From a bacterium (GTDB taxonomy: Bacteria > SM23-31 > JAUVVT01): a stretch of 5,933 nucleotides of DNA. Positions 122 to 5,933 of the stretch are shown one piece after another (position 1 is the stretch's first letter; every line of letters begins with the position of its first letter). The notes beneath the pieces were generated by a model. The model saw only the letters and a list, made by a program, of their open reading frames with translations. It had not been told where the DNA came from and did no database searches. The DNA lies in NCBI GenBank assembly GCA_030616165.1, contig JAUWXV010000224.1, forward strand, positions 1 through 5,933, given 5' to 3'. The position numbers and the translations under genes were made by a program.

Positions 122-159
122 GGACAGAACGCTGCCTGCACTTTGTGTTCTGTCCCTAC
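122..159 (-). repeat. REP-type hairpin, left unit of element 1
   Basis: Arms GGACAGAAC (122-130) and GTTCTGTCC (147-155) pair perfectly over 9 bases around a 16-base loop (131-146). On the minus strand the hairpin is immediately preceded by GTAG (156-159). The loop contains one copy of a 13-base unit, TGCCTGCACTTTG (133-145). Confidence 0.7.
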
Positions 160-187
160 ATAATAATCATTTATGATTAAATATATT

Positions 188-212
188 GTAGGGACAGGAC
201 ATTGTCCTGTCC
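188..212 (+). repeat. REP-type hairpin, right unit of element 1
   Basis: GTAG (188-191) is followed directly by GGACAGGAC (192-200), loop ATT and GTCCTGTCC (204-212), a perfect 9-base stem. G191-T213 and A190-T214 could extend it in RNA. This is the shortest loop of the four hairpins and lacks the 13-base unit. The bases after it (TTCTGTAT) are not a T-run, so I do not call it an intrinsic terminator. Confidence 0.7.
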
Positions 213-241
213 TTCTGTATAAAGTAAAAGTTGATTTTATG

Positions 242-267
242 TCATTTATTATTTAACAGAGCACTAG
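242..267 (+). repeat. Short repeat downstream of element 1, copy 1
   Basis: TCATTTATTATTTAA (242-256) is identical to 3574-3588, and the next 11 bases match at 7 positions, giving 22 of 26 identical. It lies 29 bases after the palindromic element here and 49 bases after it in the other copy. If sulfatase 1 began at TTG 231 this stretch would be coding; its presence in a non-coding gap elsewhere suggests it belongs to repeat-associated DNA instead. Confidence 0.55.
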
Positions 268-275
268 ATAATAAA

Positions 276-1745
276 GTGTCCTTTTTTGAAACAAATAAAT
301 ACGTTACCCGGCGAGAGTTTTTACAGAAGAGTACTGTGGTCGGAGCTTCATTTATTTTGAGTGAAAACAGCAAGATAATGAGGAATTCACCCAATATTCT
401 CTGGATAATGACCGACGATCAACGTGTTGATTCGCTTCATTGTTACGGTTCATCCTGGGCGAAATCCCCGAATGTAGATGCTCTCGCAGTATCAGGTGTG
501 CTATTCCGTAATGCGATTTCACAGTCTCCAGTTTGTGCGCCATCACGTACATCAATGTTAAGCGGAAAGTATTGTCGCTCAGTTGGTCTGATGGCAAATC
601 GTGGTAAGGTTAAAGAGGGTACCTATCCATTAACAAGGAAATTTTCTGAAAACGGATACCAGTTAACGAATATTGGTAAGCTTGGTTCGAGTATGCCCGG
701 TTACAAAATTTTCGACAATACAATCGATTCTCCCGGGTACGGTGGTCCAGCAGCAAGTCCATTTGAATTAATTAATGAGTTCAAAGGAAAAGAGAAGGAA
801 TTTGGCGTAATTAAACTTCCCGATTTTGTGATTATTTCCGGGACTTACCCACTGCCAGAAGAACGAACAGAACATGCTATCACGACCACAAACGCCATTG
901 ACTTTATTGAAAACAGACTCCGGGAACCGTTTTTCTTAAGGGTATCGATGATCTCGCCGCATACACCCGTCATGCCCCCAAAGCCGTATGACACTATGTT
1001 TGACCCGGACGAAATTCCGCTGCCACTCCCCACTGAGGAAGAACTAAAAAGTAAACCTGAATTTGAAAGGATAAAACTTATGCAGTTTTCTGGAAGCGCT
1101 GGAAGGATTACCAATAAGGAGGTTAAGAAAGCATGGGCTTCTTATTACGGTTTAACCGCATCAGTGGATCATCAAGTTGGACGGTTGCTGGAGGTAATGA
1201 AGAAAAATAACTTGATTGACAATACTATAGTAATTTTCACATCCGATCAAGGTGTTCAGATGGGTGAACATGGCATCTTTATGAAACGTAATTTTTATGA
1301 ACAGACTGTTCTGTCTCCACTGATTTTGTCATGGCCTGGGCATATCCCGGATGGAAAAGTTATTGACACTCAAGTGGAATTGGTCGATCTGCTTCCGACA
1401 TTACTCGAATTGGTAAATATTCCACAGGAAAAAGGTATCCACGGAAAAAGTCTTTTGCCGTTAATAACAGGGAAGACATATAAATTGAGGGAAGAAACTT
1501 TCAGTGAAATTGACCACAGTAGCTCTCAGTATCCTTTTTTAACAGAAGGCACCGGTCGAAGGGTTATGATTCGCACTGAAGAATGGAAATTAATTTATTT
1601 CGTTGATAAAACAAATCCAGACGGCGCCTTATACAATCTTCAGGAAGACCCTGGCGAAGTTAAAAACCTCTATTATAGCCCTAAATACAAAGAAATTATA
1701 AAGAAATTGGAAGCTATTGTAACCGACTGGAACGCATCAACATAA
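276..1745 (+). CDS. Tat-exported type I sulfatase with an altered GKWH motif (sulfatase 1)
   Basis: Predicted sulfate-ester hydrolase of the alkaline phosphatase-like S1 family, probably acting on a sulfated glycan outside the cytoplasm. From the GTG start it has 489 residues, normal for the family. Residues 11-28 form a twin-arginine signal (TRREFLQK, then a hydrophobic stretch). The metal site begins with TDDQ (46-49). C87 in CAPSR (87-91) is the cysteine converted to formylglycine, followed by TSMLSG. SPHTP with H229, the pair D324-Q325 in TSDQG, and K337 are in the usual places, and LYNLQEDPGE (452-461) is the typical C-terminal strand. Oddly, where most members have GKWH there is GKLGSS (134-139): the lysine stays but the histidine is gone, with none nearby. 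Start choice: GTG 276 gives a compact Tat leader, while TTG 231 would add 15 residues encoded by repeat-associated DNA. Neither has a clear Shine-Dalgarno sequence. Family is secure; substrate and activity are unknown. Confidence 0.9.
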   Translation: MSFFETNKYVTRREFLQKSTVVGASFILSENSKIMRNSPNILWIMTDDQRVDSLHCYGSSWAKSPNVDALAVSGVLFRNAISQSPVCAPSRTSMLSGKYCRSVGLMANRGKVKEGTYPLTRKFSENGYQLTNIGKLGSSMPGYKIFDNTIDSPGYGGPAASPFELINEFKGKEKEFGVIKLPDFVIISGTYPLPEERTEHAITTTNAIDFIENRLREPFFLRVSMISPHTPVMPPKPYDTMFDPDEIPLPLPTEEELKSKPEFERIKLMQFSGSAGRITNKEVKKAWASYYGLTASVDHQVGRLLEVMKKNNLIDNTIVIFTSDQGVQMGEHGIFMKRNFYEQTVLSPLILSWPGHIPDGKVIDTQVELVDLLPTLLELVNIPQEKGIHGKSLLPLITGKTYKLREETFSEIDHSSSQYPFLTEGTGRRVMIRTEEWKLIYFVDKTNPDGALYNLQEDPGEVKNLYYSPKYKEIIKKLEAIVTDWNAST

Positions 1746-1960
1746 CGATGATTCGTATTGTGAAAATAATCTCTGCGGAAGGGAAACAGGAGTAGAATAA
1801 CAAGTTTTTAATGAGAAGAAAGCAACAGTGTTTAGCATATGCCTGTGAAGGTATAGAATGTAAATGTTACTGAAATCATTTTGGAATAAAGAATAAAGAG
1901 TTATAAACGAATGATTTTGGGGATTAGTTTTATTACGCTAAAAAATTGAAGGTCTTTCTA
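1746..1960 (+). other. Gap between the two sulfatase genes
   Basis: These 215 AT-rich bases hold no convincing gene. Visible structure is an inverted repeat AAATCATT (1873-1880) and AATGATTT (1910-1917) with a 29-base spacer, and a 7-base tandem repeat (GAATAAA twice) between the arms. An AGGAG at 1788-1792 is 18 bases before an ATG at 1811, too far to support the 20-codon cysteine-rich frame there. No strong promoter or terminator was found, so it is unclear whether the two sulfatases share a transcript. Confidence 0.4.
1948..1953 (+). promoter_or_regulatory. Ribosome binding site that decides the start of sulfatase 2
   Basis: GAAGGT lies seven bases before ATG 1961. An upstream in-frame TTG at 1946 overlaps this site, so ATG 1961, which also gives the compact Tat leader, is the better start. 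Confidence 0.6.
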
Positions 1961-3343
1961 ATGTCACGTAAATTCACACGCCGAAGTTTTCTTAAATATG
2001 GAACTGCTGCGAGTTTAGGAGCCGCACTGTTACCTGTTATGAACTGTTCAAAAATAAAAAAGGAGCAACCCAATATCCTTTTTCTTTATACTGATCAACA
2101 GCATGGTTTTACGATAAGCGAAAATGAGGATTATAAGTTTGAGACACCTGCTATGGATGCTCTTGCTGAACAGGGTGTAACTTTCACTAATTCATTTTGC
2201 TCTACCCCACAATGTTCTCCTTCCCGCGCCTCTATACAAACCGGTCAATATACCCATCGCACTGGGGTTATTACGAATCTAAACATGGCGGCAGGTAGAG
2301 GTATTCCTCTTAATCCTGCTCTCCCATCGATGGGAAATATATTCAGAAATAATGGTTATCAAACCGCCTATTATGGAAAATGGCACTTAGGGGGTGACCC
2401 AAAAGCTCACGGCTGGGGAGACTATAAGCAGGCTAAGGGGAATAAACTAACTCGTTTGGGAGTATCATTTTTAAATTCAAAACCTCGCCAACCTTTTTTT
2501 CTCTTTTTGTCGTATTTAAATCCTCATGATATTTATCAATTTGCCAAGCAAAATAAAGTTACAAAAAATATTTCGGAAATCCGCTTGCCGAGATCGTTTG
2601 AAGATGACCTGTCAACTAAACCCTACCCACAGCGTCAATTCATGCAGGAGGATCAGGGCAAATTCATGAAAAAAGCAGATGTTCCTACCTGGAAGGCATA
2701 CCGACAATTCTATCGAGAAAAAGTCAAACTTGTTGATACAGAAATTGGAATTGTACTGGACGCCCTGAGAAAAACAGGATTAATGGAAAATACCTTAATC
2801 GTTTTTACTTCTGACCATGGAGATATGGATGCGGCGCACCGGCTTGTGTTCAAGGGTCCATTTATGTATGAAGAGATGATCAGGGTGCCACTTATTATCT
2901 CTTACCCGGGATATTTCCCGGTAGGAGAATCACGCAATCAGTTAATACAGAATATTGGCCTACTTCCCACATTGGCTGAAATTGCTGGAATTACACTCCC
3001 GCATAAGCCTGATGGAAAGAGCCTGATGCCGATATTACAAAGCGAAAACGCTAAAGGGAGAGACTTTATTTTCACAGAGTACTATGCCAAACAAGAGTGG
3101 ATAACTCCAATCAGAAGCATCCGCACAATAGATTGGAAATACAATCTCTACCAGAAGTGGGGAGAAGAGTTGTATAATTTGAAAAACGATCCGATTGAAG
3201 TGCATAACCTTGCAGGCGATGAAGCATTTAAAGATAAACAACAGGAGTTACGCTCAAAATTGCAGGAGTGGATGAAAACAACCGATGATTATTTTATACA
3301 TTTACGGGCAACCGATCGATCTGGACTAATATTAGATATATAA
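1961..3343 (+). CDS. Tat-exported type I sulfatase, canonical active site (sulfatase 2)
   Basis: Predicted S1-family sulfatase of 460 residues, hydrolysing sulfate esters on an unidentified substrate, likely a glycan. The N-terminus carries a twin-arginine signal (FTRRSFLK, 5-12) and a hydrophobic run ending at LLPVMNCSK (23-31). C29 could suggest a Tat lipoprotein, but VMNC is a poor lipobox. Active-site elements in order: TDQQ (44-47; Gln as the second residue, as in many S1 members), C85 in CSPSR (85-89) as formylglycine precursor, GKWH (139-142), NPHDI with H189, SDHGDMD starting at S284 with D285-H286, then K298 in FKGPFMYEE and RVPLI. The C-terminal LYNLKNDPIE (404-413) is typical. Every key residue is present, in contrast to sulfatase 1. 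The two proteins resemble each other only at family motifs, so they are not a recent duplication and probably act on different linkages. Cysteine-type sulfatases need maturation by FGE or anSME, not seen here. Confidence 0.93.
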   Translation: MSRKFTRRSFLKYGTAASLGAALLPVMNCSKIKKEQPNILFLYTDQQHGFTISENEDYKFETPAMDALAEQGVTFTNSFCSTPQCSPSRASIQTGQYTHRTGVITNLNMAAGRGIPLNPALPSMGNIFRNNGYQTAYYGKWHLGGDPKAHGWGDYKQAKGNKLTRLGVSFLNSKPRQPFFLFLSYLNPHDIYQFAKQNKVTKNISEIRLPRSFEDDLSTKPYPQRQFMQEDQGKFMKKADVPTWKAYRQFYREKVKLVDTEIGIVLDALRKTGLMENTLIVFTSDHGDMDAAHRLVFKGPFMYEEMIRVPLIISYPGYFPVGESRNQLIQNIGLLPTLAEIAGITLPHKPDGKSLMPILQSENAKGRDFIFTEYYAKQEWITPIRSIRTIDWKYNLYQKWGEELYNLKNDPIEVHNLAGDEAFKDKQQELRSKLQEWMKTTDDYFIHLRATDRSGLILDI

Positions 3344-3407
3344 ATCAAAGATAATTGTTTCTATATCGTGTATATCCAGCATCTAAACTTATATAAAATA
3401 TGCTAAC

Positions 3408-3458
3408 GGACAGAACGCTGCCTGCACACTGTGCCTGCACTTTGTGTTCTATCCCTAC
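3408..3458 (-). repeat. REP-type hairpin, left unit of element 2, with a double loop unit
   Basis: GGACAGAAC (3408-3416) pairs with GTTCTATCC (3446-3454) with one mismatch. GTAG is on the minus strand at 3455-3458. The 29-base loop holds two tandem 13-base units, TGCCTGCACACTG (3419-3431) and TGCCTGCACTTTG (3432-3444). The doubled unit creates an additional small stem, GCAC (3424-3427) with GTGC (3431-3434). Confidence 0.68.
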
Positions 3459-3486
3459 ATAATAATCATTTGTGATTAAATATATT

Positions 3487-3524
3487 GTAGGGACAGGACA
3501 ATGCCTGCACACTGTGTCCTGTCC
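3487..3524 (+). repeat. REP-type hairpin, right unit of element 2
   Basis: GTAG (3487-3490) is followed by GGACAGGAC (3491-3499), a 16-base loop (3500-3515) and GTCCTGTCC (3516-3524), a perfect 9-base stem. The loop holds one 13-base unit, TGCCTGCACACTG (3502-3514), which is absent from the equivalent hairpin of element 1. Confidence 0.68.
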
Positions 3525-3599: not shown

Positions 3600-3753
3600 G
3601 GCATCGTTTACAATAAATTTAGAAAATGCTTTTTATTCTTATTAATCTTCATGTTCCCAAAATTTTAAAATGAATAAAAGTTTTTTATCTATTATATTCT
3701 CTTCATTCAAGTGGAAATTAAAAATTATACTATCAATAATTTATTAGCATATG

Positions 3754-3758
3754 AGGAG
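3754..3758 (+). promoter_or_regulatory. Shine-Dalgarno site of the GH106-like gene
   Basis: AGGAG lies six bases before ATG 3765, close to ideal, and fixes the start of the downstream gene. It shows that this genome uses Shine-Dalgarno initiation at least here. Confidence 0.75.
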
Positions 3759-3764
3759 TCAATT

Positions 3765-5933
3765 ATGCGCTTTAAATATTTATTTTACGCGATTGTGAGT
3801 TTCATTTTAATAGGATTTTTTCTGATACTTTCTTGTTCTAAAAAGAGTTCGTTAGAAATCAGTTCTTTTAAAGAGATAAAAGAACATTTCGCCAATCCGC
3901 CGGTAGAATTTCGGAGCGTTCCGTTTGCTGTGTGGAACGACGAAGTAACGGAAGAGAAGATCGAGAGACAGATAACTAAGTTACATTCTCAGGGAATTGG
4001 TGGTGTATTCATCCATCCGCGCTATGGTCTTATTACGCCATATTTTTCGGAAAGATATTTTTCTCTATACAAATTTGCTTATGAAAAGTTAAAAGAGCTG
4101 GGGATGAAAATGTGGCTGTACGATGAGAACGGTTATCCTAGTGGTATGGCGGGTGGTTATGTGCGTGCAGAAATGCCGGAAGCTGCCGGGAAAGCATTGG
4201 TACCTCACCGCTATAATACACTCCCAACCGATATAAAGGGAGAAGTATTGGTTGTTTTGAAATCGGAGAAATCAGGTTTTATTGATATAACTGGTCGGCT
4301 GGAAGAAGAAAAGTCAAAAACCGGAAAGTATTATATTTTCGAATTGGTTCCAAATTCTTCCGGAAAGTATGTCGATTTATTAATTGATGGTGTAACCGAA
4401 AAATTTTTAGAGATTACAGTCGAAGAAGGATACAAAAAGTTCTTTGGTCACGAGTTTGGGAAACTGATACCGGGGATTTTTCAGGATGAAGCTGATATTT
4501 CACCTCCTGGTAGAAACTCTTTAAAATGGACACCTGCACTGTTTTCAGAATTTGAAAAAGAATGGGGATATGACCTGAAACTTCATCTTCCCTCTCTTTT
4601 TGAAGAAGTTGGTGATTGGAAAAAAGTACGGCATAATTATTACTCTGTCCTGTTGCATCTTTTTATTGAACGATGGGCTAAGGTGTATTATCAGTATTGT
4701 GAAGAGAATAATTTACAGTTTACCGGTCACTACTGGGAGAATTGGTGGCCCAGGCCTGCACGTTGCCCGGACAATATGGCAATGTATGAATGGGCTCAGA
4801 TGCCTGGTATTGATATCCTTGATAATGTTTACTGTGATGACTCCAGAGTCCAGAGGGACAAAGGGGGATATCAGCATTTGCAGTTCGGCAATGTCCGTGC
4901 TGTGAAGGAATTAAGCAGTGTTGCAAACCAGATGGGTCGCTCCCGAACCTTAAGTGAAACATACGGCAGAAGTGGATGGGATTTGAGATTCGAGGATATG
5001 AAACGCATTGGTGATTGGGAATATGCTCTGGGAGTCAATTTTCTAAATCAACATCTTTTCCAGATGTCCCTTAAAGGAACACGAAAACAAGATAATCCGC
5101 CATCATTTTATCACGAACCATATTGGGAATTGTACCATTTTATTTCTGATTATTTTGCACGTCTTTCTCTTGTCCTTTCTTCGGGTGAACAAATAAATAA
5201 AATTTTAGTTATTGAACCAACTTCATCAGTATGGATGTATTTCTCTACGATAAATTCGAATAAAAAGAACCTTTTGCTCGGTGACGCATTCCAGGAGTTT
5301 GTTACAAAACTGGTAAAACTTCAAGTCGATTATGACCTCGGATGTGAAAATATTATCAAGAATATAGGAAAGGTTGAAAATGGTAAAATTATTGTGGGAG
5401 AAAGAACCTATGATCTTCTCGTTCTTCCTCCTGGTCTCGAAAACCTGAATTCTTCAACAGTGTCTCTGGTGGAAAAATACCTTCAGGAAGGTGGTAAAGT
5501 TATTTCATTTGTGGAAACACCAAAATATTTCGATGGTTCAGAATCGGATAAAATTGACTTGCTTGCTTCAAAGTACAGCACAAATTGGCAGGCATTTGAT
5601 CAATTGAATGCCCGGATTGTGTCTAATCTATTCACTTCGGAAGACTTTCAAATATTACACCCGGAAAACATTTCTGATATGTTGTTTCATAACCGCAGGC
5701 AGTTGAAGGATGGCGAGATGCTTTTCTTGGTAAATACCAGTATTGAAGAAAATGCTGCTGGCAGGGTAAAAATTAAAGGGCGATCTGTTTTGGAATTAAA
5801 CCTGTTGAACGGTGATATAACTCCATATCCTGCATCAGTTGAGGGTAGTTCTATATCCATGGACTTTGATTTGCCTCCATCTGGCAGTCTATTATTATTT
5901 ATCAGTCCATCTTCTTCAAAGATTCCATCTATT
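3765..5933 (+). CDS. GH106-like glycoside hydrolase (putative alpha-L-rhamnosidase), lipoprotein, 3' end outside the window
   Basis: An open frame of 723 codons with no stop before the right edge. Residues 1-24 form a lipoprotein signal: MRFK, a long hydrophobic core, then ILSC with C24 as the lipidation site, so the enzyme is probably membrane-anchored in the periplasm or at the surface. The next part resembles the barrel of GH106-type enzymes: GVFIHPR (80-86), WLYDENGYPSG (117-127), FQDEADISPPG (239-249, acidic pair D241-E242), FTGHYWENWW (319-328), SETYGRSGWD (397-406) and a GVNFLNQH segment ending at H430. An ILVIEP strand (480-485), a Rossmann-like YDLLVLPPG to GGKVISF segment (549-582) and a beta-rich part with FLVNTS (654-659) and LPPSGSLLLF (703-712) follow. 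GH106 cleaves terminal alpha-L-rhamnose; this specificity is inferred from remembered family patterns and other exo-glycosidase activities are possible. A full-length family member would continue for some hundreds of residues, possibly with a beta-sandwich. Confidence 0.75.
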   Translation, partial: MRFKYLFYAIVSFILIGFFLILSCSKKSSLEISSFKEIKEHFANPPVEFRSVPFAVWNDEVTEEKIERQITKLHSQGIGGVFIHPRYGLITPYFSERYFSLYKFAYEKLKELGMKMWLYDENGYPSGMAGGYVRAEMPEAAGKALVPHRYNTLPTDIKGEVLVVLKSEKSGFIDITGRLEEEKSKTGKYYIFELVPNSSGKYVDLLIDGVTEKFLEITVEEGYKKFFGHEFGKLIPGIFQDEADISPPGRNSLKWTPALFSEFEKEWGYDLKLHLPSLFEEVGDWKKVRHNYYSVLLHLFIERWAKVYYQYCEENNLQFTGHYWENWWPRPARCPDNMAMYEWAQMPGIDILDNVYCDDSRVQRDKGGYQHLQFGNVRAVKELSSVANQMGRSRTLSETYGRSGWDLRFEDMKRIGDWEYALGVNFLNQHLFQMSLKGTRKQDNPPSFYHEPYWELYHFISDYFARLSLVLSSGEQINKILVIEPTSSVWMYFSTINSNKKNLLLGDAFQEFVTKLVKLQVDYDLGCENIIKNIGKVENGKIIVGERTYDLLVLPPGLENLNSSTVSLVEKYLQEGGKVISFVETPKYFDGSESDKIDLLASKYSTNWQAFDQLNARIVSNLFTSEDFQILHPENISDMLFHNRRQLKDGEMLFLVNTSIEENAAGRVKIKGRSVLELNLLNGDITPYPASVEGSSISMDFDLPPSGSLLLFISPSSSKIPSI

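Follow-up and report, generated by a model that had tools for sequence, protein, structure and literature searches.

The closest described systems are the GTAG REPs, BIMEs and REPINs associated with RAYT proteins (PMC3733652; Bertels and Rainey 2011, PMC3116915; PMC8266576). The hairpins described here resemble them in the GTAG foot, the 8-9 bp palindrome, the small loop, the extragenic location, the occurrence both singly and as inverted doublets, and the presence of RAYT-type Y1 genes in the genome. Within GTAG REP families, variants of the loop have already been described (Di Nocera 2013, PMC3733652). Recognition by TnpAREP can hinge on a loop or bulge (PMC8266576), so a sequence inserted in the loop could alter recognition of this type. 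In the literature searched, no published REP family turned up with loops that step by a fixed unit, and none that shares one unit between different stems.

Cyanobacterial SDRs (Elhai et al. 2008, as cited in PMC4390886 and PMC3116915) are also very small dispersed elements. SDR5 is reported to insert precisely inside another short palindrome, HIP1, and it may be the nearest precedent for a tiny repeat that precisely enters another short palindrome (PMC4390886). GC clusters are listed as mobile DNA (PMC4478555). Those of yeast mitochondria, and the double-hairpin elements of fungal and other mitochondria, are likewise tiny, hairpin-forming and able to spread without an identified enzyme of their own, but they are organellar and have no sequence relation to the unit reported here. 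They also tend to exceed 13 bases in size. For published SDRs the length is about 20-27 bases, and for this reason we do not file the unit as an SDR member; at 13 bases it also differs from them in its host lineage, its mainly nested position in REP tips and its often tandem arrangement.

The window, which is the whole 5,933-nucleotide stretch analyzed, is the entire contig C122 of a fragmented MAG (3.74 Mb, 343 contigs). The four hairpins that had been recognized in it by a sequence-only reading, with loops of 16, 3, 29 and 16 bases, were recovered exactly. The features are as follows (n, number of unit copies in the loop).

122-155, minus strand: REP hairpin 1, left half of inverted doublet 1; arms GGACAGAAC (122-130) and GTTCTGTCC (147-155), loop of 16 bases (131-146), n=1; its GTAG foot reads CTAC on the plus strand (156-159)
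135-147, plus strand: unit CCTGCACTTTGTG in hairpin 1, between GCTG and TTC (133-145 in the phase first proposed)
156-191: spacer of doublet 1, 36 bases, A+T-rich, with CTAC and GTAG at its ends
188-212, plus strand: REP hairpin 2 with GTAG foot (188-191); arms GGACAGGAC (192-200) and 204-212, loop ATT (201-203), n=0
231-1745, plus strand: neighboring ORF outside the element, with Pfam matches to Sulfatase (PF00884) and SGSH_C
1946-3343, plus strand: second sulfatase ORF, a neighbor between the two doublets
3408-3454, minus strand: REP hairpin 3, left half of doublet 2; arms GGACAGAAC (3408-3416) and GTTCTATCC (3446-3454), loop of 29 bases (3417-3445), n=2
3421-3433, plus strand: unit CCTGCACACTGTG, first of the pair in hairpin 3
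3434-3446, plus strand: unit CCTGCACTTTGTG, second of the pair in hairpin 3
3487-3524, plus strand: REP hairpin 4 with GTAG foot (3487-3490); arms GGACAGGAC (3491-3499) and 3516-3524, loop of 16 bases (3500-3515), n=1
3504-3516, plus strand: unit CCTGCACACTGTG in hairpin 4, between AATG and TCC
3711-5933, plus strand: neighboring ORF that runs off the contig end, with a match to Glyco_hydro_106 (alpha-L-rhamnosidase family)

Both elements are inverted doublets in which the spacer is 36 bases long and the GTAG/CTAC feet point inwards, and the spacer at 156-191 has near-identical counterparts in other doublets. The stem of hairpin 3 has one mismatch, in GTTCTATCC. In the phase first proposed, the units are exact and all on the plus strand: TGCCTGCACTTTG at 133-145, TGCCTGCACACTG at 3419-3431, TGCCTGCACTTTG at 3432-3444 and TGCCTGCACACTG at 3502-3514. 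Apart from the repeats, the sulfatase pair (231-3343) and the GH106-like gene downstream suggest degradation of sulfated polysaccharides.

The rule proposed for the loops, 3 + 13n, holds genome-wide. Strict stems of the form GTAGGGACAGRAC...GTYCTRTCC, with gaps of 2-32, have 89 matches in the genome, with loops of only 3, 16 and 29 bases. A relaxed scan of fetched DNA stretches (two arms, gap 0-70, at most 3 mismatches) identified 82 hairpins of the GGACAGRAC-stem family, with loops of 3 (32 hairpins), 16 (41) and 29 (9) bases; matches of other lengths, left out of the 82, were low-identity chance matches or arms paired across two hairpins. Two 16-base matches (L022:425 and L028:152) are without the unit. 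The pattern TGCCTGCACWYTG has 55 matches in the genome versus 0 for a reversed control, and therefore the hairpins are not due to chance. Peaks at 3, 16, 29 and 42 had been predicted. The first three are present, but no loop of 42 occurs among the GGACAGRAC-stem hairpins of this genome. The outcome named as evidence against a ladder, a continuous spread of lengths or loops of unrelated sequence, is therefore not what the genome-wide scan shows.

Steps of 13 bases are also found on other stems. In a second family, GGGYRRAC (GTAGGGGYRRACYTG...TYYRCCC), all 22 genome matches follow them: gaps are 0, 13 and 26 at 9, 3 and 3 sites of a TTG type (15 total), and 4 and 17 at 5 and 2 sites of a CTGTG type (7 total). 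The shortest, unit-free forms are the majority in these hosts (14 of 22). No intermediate or partial loop lengths were found among the 82 GGACAGRAC and 22 GGGYRRAC hairpins. Stems of the GGGCGAAC/GGGTGAAC type have loops of 2, 15, 28 and 41 or of 6, 19 and 32 bases, with from zero to three units, and three units are present at L180 and L089.

The host hairpins are GTAG-tagged REPs, present as singles or as BIME/REPIN-like inverted doublets. GTAG lies directly 5' of the palindrome, and the hairpins are multi-copy and extragenic, with 4 of 84 in ORFs of at least 100 aa versus a background coverage of 63%. The inverted doublets have a conserved spacer; the 14 that we extracted have 36-base CTAC...GTAG spacers. 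RAYT-type Y1 transposases are encoded in the genome, as indicated by seven PF01797 (Y1_Tnp) matches over the cut-off. No cognate RAYT was found beside the GGACAG stem in this MAG, which is 90% complete and breaks at repeats. Many contigs start or stop inside these REPs (C79, C120, C286 and C321 among them), so the assembly is broken by REPs and their copy number is underestimated. The unit is also hosted by REPs of the GGGTGAAC type, and two RAYT matches, at L032 and L033, have such a REP at a distance of about 95 bases. Both loci share one RAYT layout (L032 1406-1749 and L033 1409-1752): a GGGTGAAC REP lies upstream, and a GGGCGGGT REP in inverted orientation lies within or downstream. At L031 (1102-2276), a RAYT gene amid six or more GTAG-CCGAGCCTG-TCCY-CAGGCTCGG repeats forms a clear REPtron with a different stem. 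Scanning contigs of other genomes for the F-oriented hairpin returned five loci; four are chance matches in genes, and the only real one, L071 in a related MAG, is an n=1 form with a GTAG foot. The F-oriented hairpin was absent from viral contigs.

The unit, with consensus CYTGYMCNNTGKG when phased on CC-type copies, is a mini-hairpin (GYMC-NNT-GKGC) plus a two-base spacer. The best phase places CYTGYMCNNTGKG after TG; the phase first proposed amounts to the same for TGCCTGCACACTG, whereas the two phases differ for the related unit CTTGCCCTGTGGG. The consensus has 161 matches in its own genome versus 11 for the reversed pattern, the CC-type unit alone has 92 versus 2 for the control, and tandem pairs have 16 versus 0. 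In G001, a MAG of the same family but another genus (the genome carrying L071, JAUVVT010000142.1), there are 25 matches versus 6 for the control, and four genomes of the same class are at background level. Tandem pairs are absent, one match excepted, from about 288 other genomes. A literature search for the unit sequences returned no relevant paper. Of 187 copies, 179 have an A-T or C-G pair at positions 6 and 12, and across 32 distinct units these two positions covary (Fisher P 0.003), with no covariation at non-paired control positions. The pair 5-13 does not covary significantly among distinct units (P 0.22), so the structural conservation of the unit rests mainly on the pair 6-12.

At least five different hosts carry the unit: the tips of GGACAGRAC, GGGCAGAAC, GGGCGAAC/GGGTGAAC/GGGCGGAC and GACAGACA hairpins, and CTCTG|TGG, a repeat that is not a REP. 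Thus, like an SDR, it is a short dispersed sequence in several unrelated contexts. TG directly precedes the unit array in 104 of 161 cases and T directly follows in 127 of 161; about a third of the arrays, mainly beside TCTGCGG, are without the preceding TG. A longer unit of like design, CTTGYCCGCCTCTGGCGGG (19 bases), is found both in tandem and intermingled with 13-base copies (L172 123, L149, L132 and L187). A dispersed intergenic repeat, CCACGAATTACACAGATTAAAGAGATTAGATGTAG...TTACAATTATTTTCATG (L081, L100, L092 and others), carries single REPs in n=0, 1 and 2 forms.

Filled and empty sites have precise boundaries. The clearest case is L061 (n=0) versus L060 (n=1), where 120 of 120 flanking bases are identical and the sole difference is the 13 bases CCTGCCCTGTGGG; the microhomology at the junction is 1 base. 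Overall, 34 pairs with flanks at least 90% identical differ by 13 (28 pairs) or 26 (6 pairs) bases and never by another length, as expected from the gain and loss of a discrete unit that had been proposed. Doublet 1 of the window and the doublet of contig C134 (L001/L007) align over 111 bases except for one 13-base insertion, in the right hairpin. In one case, L013 is filled by a 19-base unit of like design (CTTGCCCGCCTATGGAGGG) where L035 is empty. In a tree of the doublets, support was too poor for counting gains and losses.

In the window all units are on the plus strand and ignore the inverted symmetry of the hairpins, as had been noted, but genome-wide both orientations with respect to the GTAG foot are found. 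A palindromic stem lets the unit be read either way from the foot, and the two orientations fit insertion on either strand of the palindrome. In asymmetric loops with TG on one strand only, 12 of 14 units are on the TG strand, a preference that is suggestive only because most of the 14 belong to one related group.

What has to be explained is a unit with exact 13-base steps, a precise position, flank-matched filled and empty sites, and several unrelated hosts. We consider it somewhat more probable than the alternatives combined that the ladder reflects a very small dispersed mini-hairpin repeat of 13 bases, lodged in the tips of REPs of several GTAG-type families. The unit CYTGYMCNNTGKG would typically be placed exactly between TG and the T that starts the 3' arm, and the zero, one, two or three copies present would set the loop length of the host tip. 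We infer both the predominance of gains over losses and their route: copies of the unit would be inserted, as opposed to dropping out time and again from an ancestral form, possibly through a mechanism that acts on specific sites in hairpins when these are single-stranded. The inserting activity could come from a Y1/HUH enzyme, for which the seven RAYT-like proteins are candidates. Copying of host REPs and short conversion events between hairpins may then spread and reshuffle filled loops. Many filled sites descend from host REP copying, so independent insertion events are far fewer than 161, and our informal reading, as opposed to a formal count, is roughly a dozen. That the unit is itself mobile, inserted site-specifically between TG and T at hairpin tips by an enzyme that is provided in trans and acts on single strands, is a rather unlikely though specific version of this proposal. 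To our knowledge, 13 bases are too few for any known transposon with two ends. An IS200/IS605-type element was considered and rejected, as the unit is a single 13-base mini-hairpin that carries no passenger and has no flanking end hairpins.

The sequence-only reading had attributed the ladder to slippage or to gene conversion between loops. This accounts for discrete gain and loss and for some exchange, but is incomplete as a whole explanation. Short-tract exchange between hairpins follows from the chimeric stems of L005 and L009 (AAC...GTCC), which are half AAC-type and half GAC-type. Conversion between GGACAGRAC loops is nevertheless insufficient, because other REP stems and hosts that are not REPs also contain the unit family, and its presence in unrelated repeats suggests an unusually small dispersed element, not simple stutter. 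Ordinary slippage does not explain L060/L061, with its 1 base of junction microhomology. Minisatellites (VNTRs) are similar in having tandem units of identical length, but most sites here have 0 or 1 unit, hosts are many and single gains are precise; the L060/L061 step from n=0 to n=1 is also not a change within a tandem array or between direct repeats. The main rival, to which we give a real but minority chance, combines replication template switching with slippage at hairpin tips. A strand stalled at a REP tip would copy a short stretch from another hairpin via 1-3 bases of microhomology (TG/T), after which existing units would duplicate or drop out in register, making a dedicated enzyme unnecessary. 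In favor of this rival, hairpins are known hot spots of strand switching, the two units of an n=2 loop stand in tandem, and GTG recurs at a 13-base interval in A-type units. Local exchange or inversion is evident from the L005/L009 stems and from L095, the right hairpin of which is the exact reverse complement of the fourth hairpin of the window. However, many sites, in different hosts, have exact junctions with hardly any homology, partial lengths are absent from both hairpin families, and units are common to hosts with unrelated flanks.

Folding bears on another possibility, that REPs originally had the 16-base loop as part of an extended and bulged stem, the unit being simply the upper part of the hairpin, with loops of 3 arising by recurrent 13-base deletion and loops of 29 by duplication. 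DNA folding predicts that the AGTG...CACT form, GTAG-GGACAGAAC-AGTG-CCTGCA-CACT-GT-GTTCTGTCC, lengthens the stem with a two-base bulge (-11 kcal/mol versus -8.4 for the empty form), as in Escherichia coli REPs, and L071 of the related MAG has the same n=1 form with a GTAG foot. Against this, the other unit types and orientations fold mostly as an open loop and leave the stem unextended, so we reject an extended stem as a general account of n=1. The unit also occurs in hosts with other stems and in non-REP sequence, and short forms prevail in the GGGYRRAC hosts. We regard an ancestral 16-base loop as improbable.

A dispersed 13-base repeat at REP tips bears on two open questions: the diversification of REPs, and the spread of very small repeats that have no genes of their own. 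The dataset covers two genera, two unit lengths and several host stems and includes exact filled and empty sites, which allows precise insertion to be told from slippage. If the unit is mobile, few known mobile DNA elements would be as small, and it would parasitize elements (REPs) that are themselves miniature. If its insertion is enzymatic, it would set a new lower size bound for a mobile DNA unit, and RAYT-like proteins would gain a possible second substrate.
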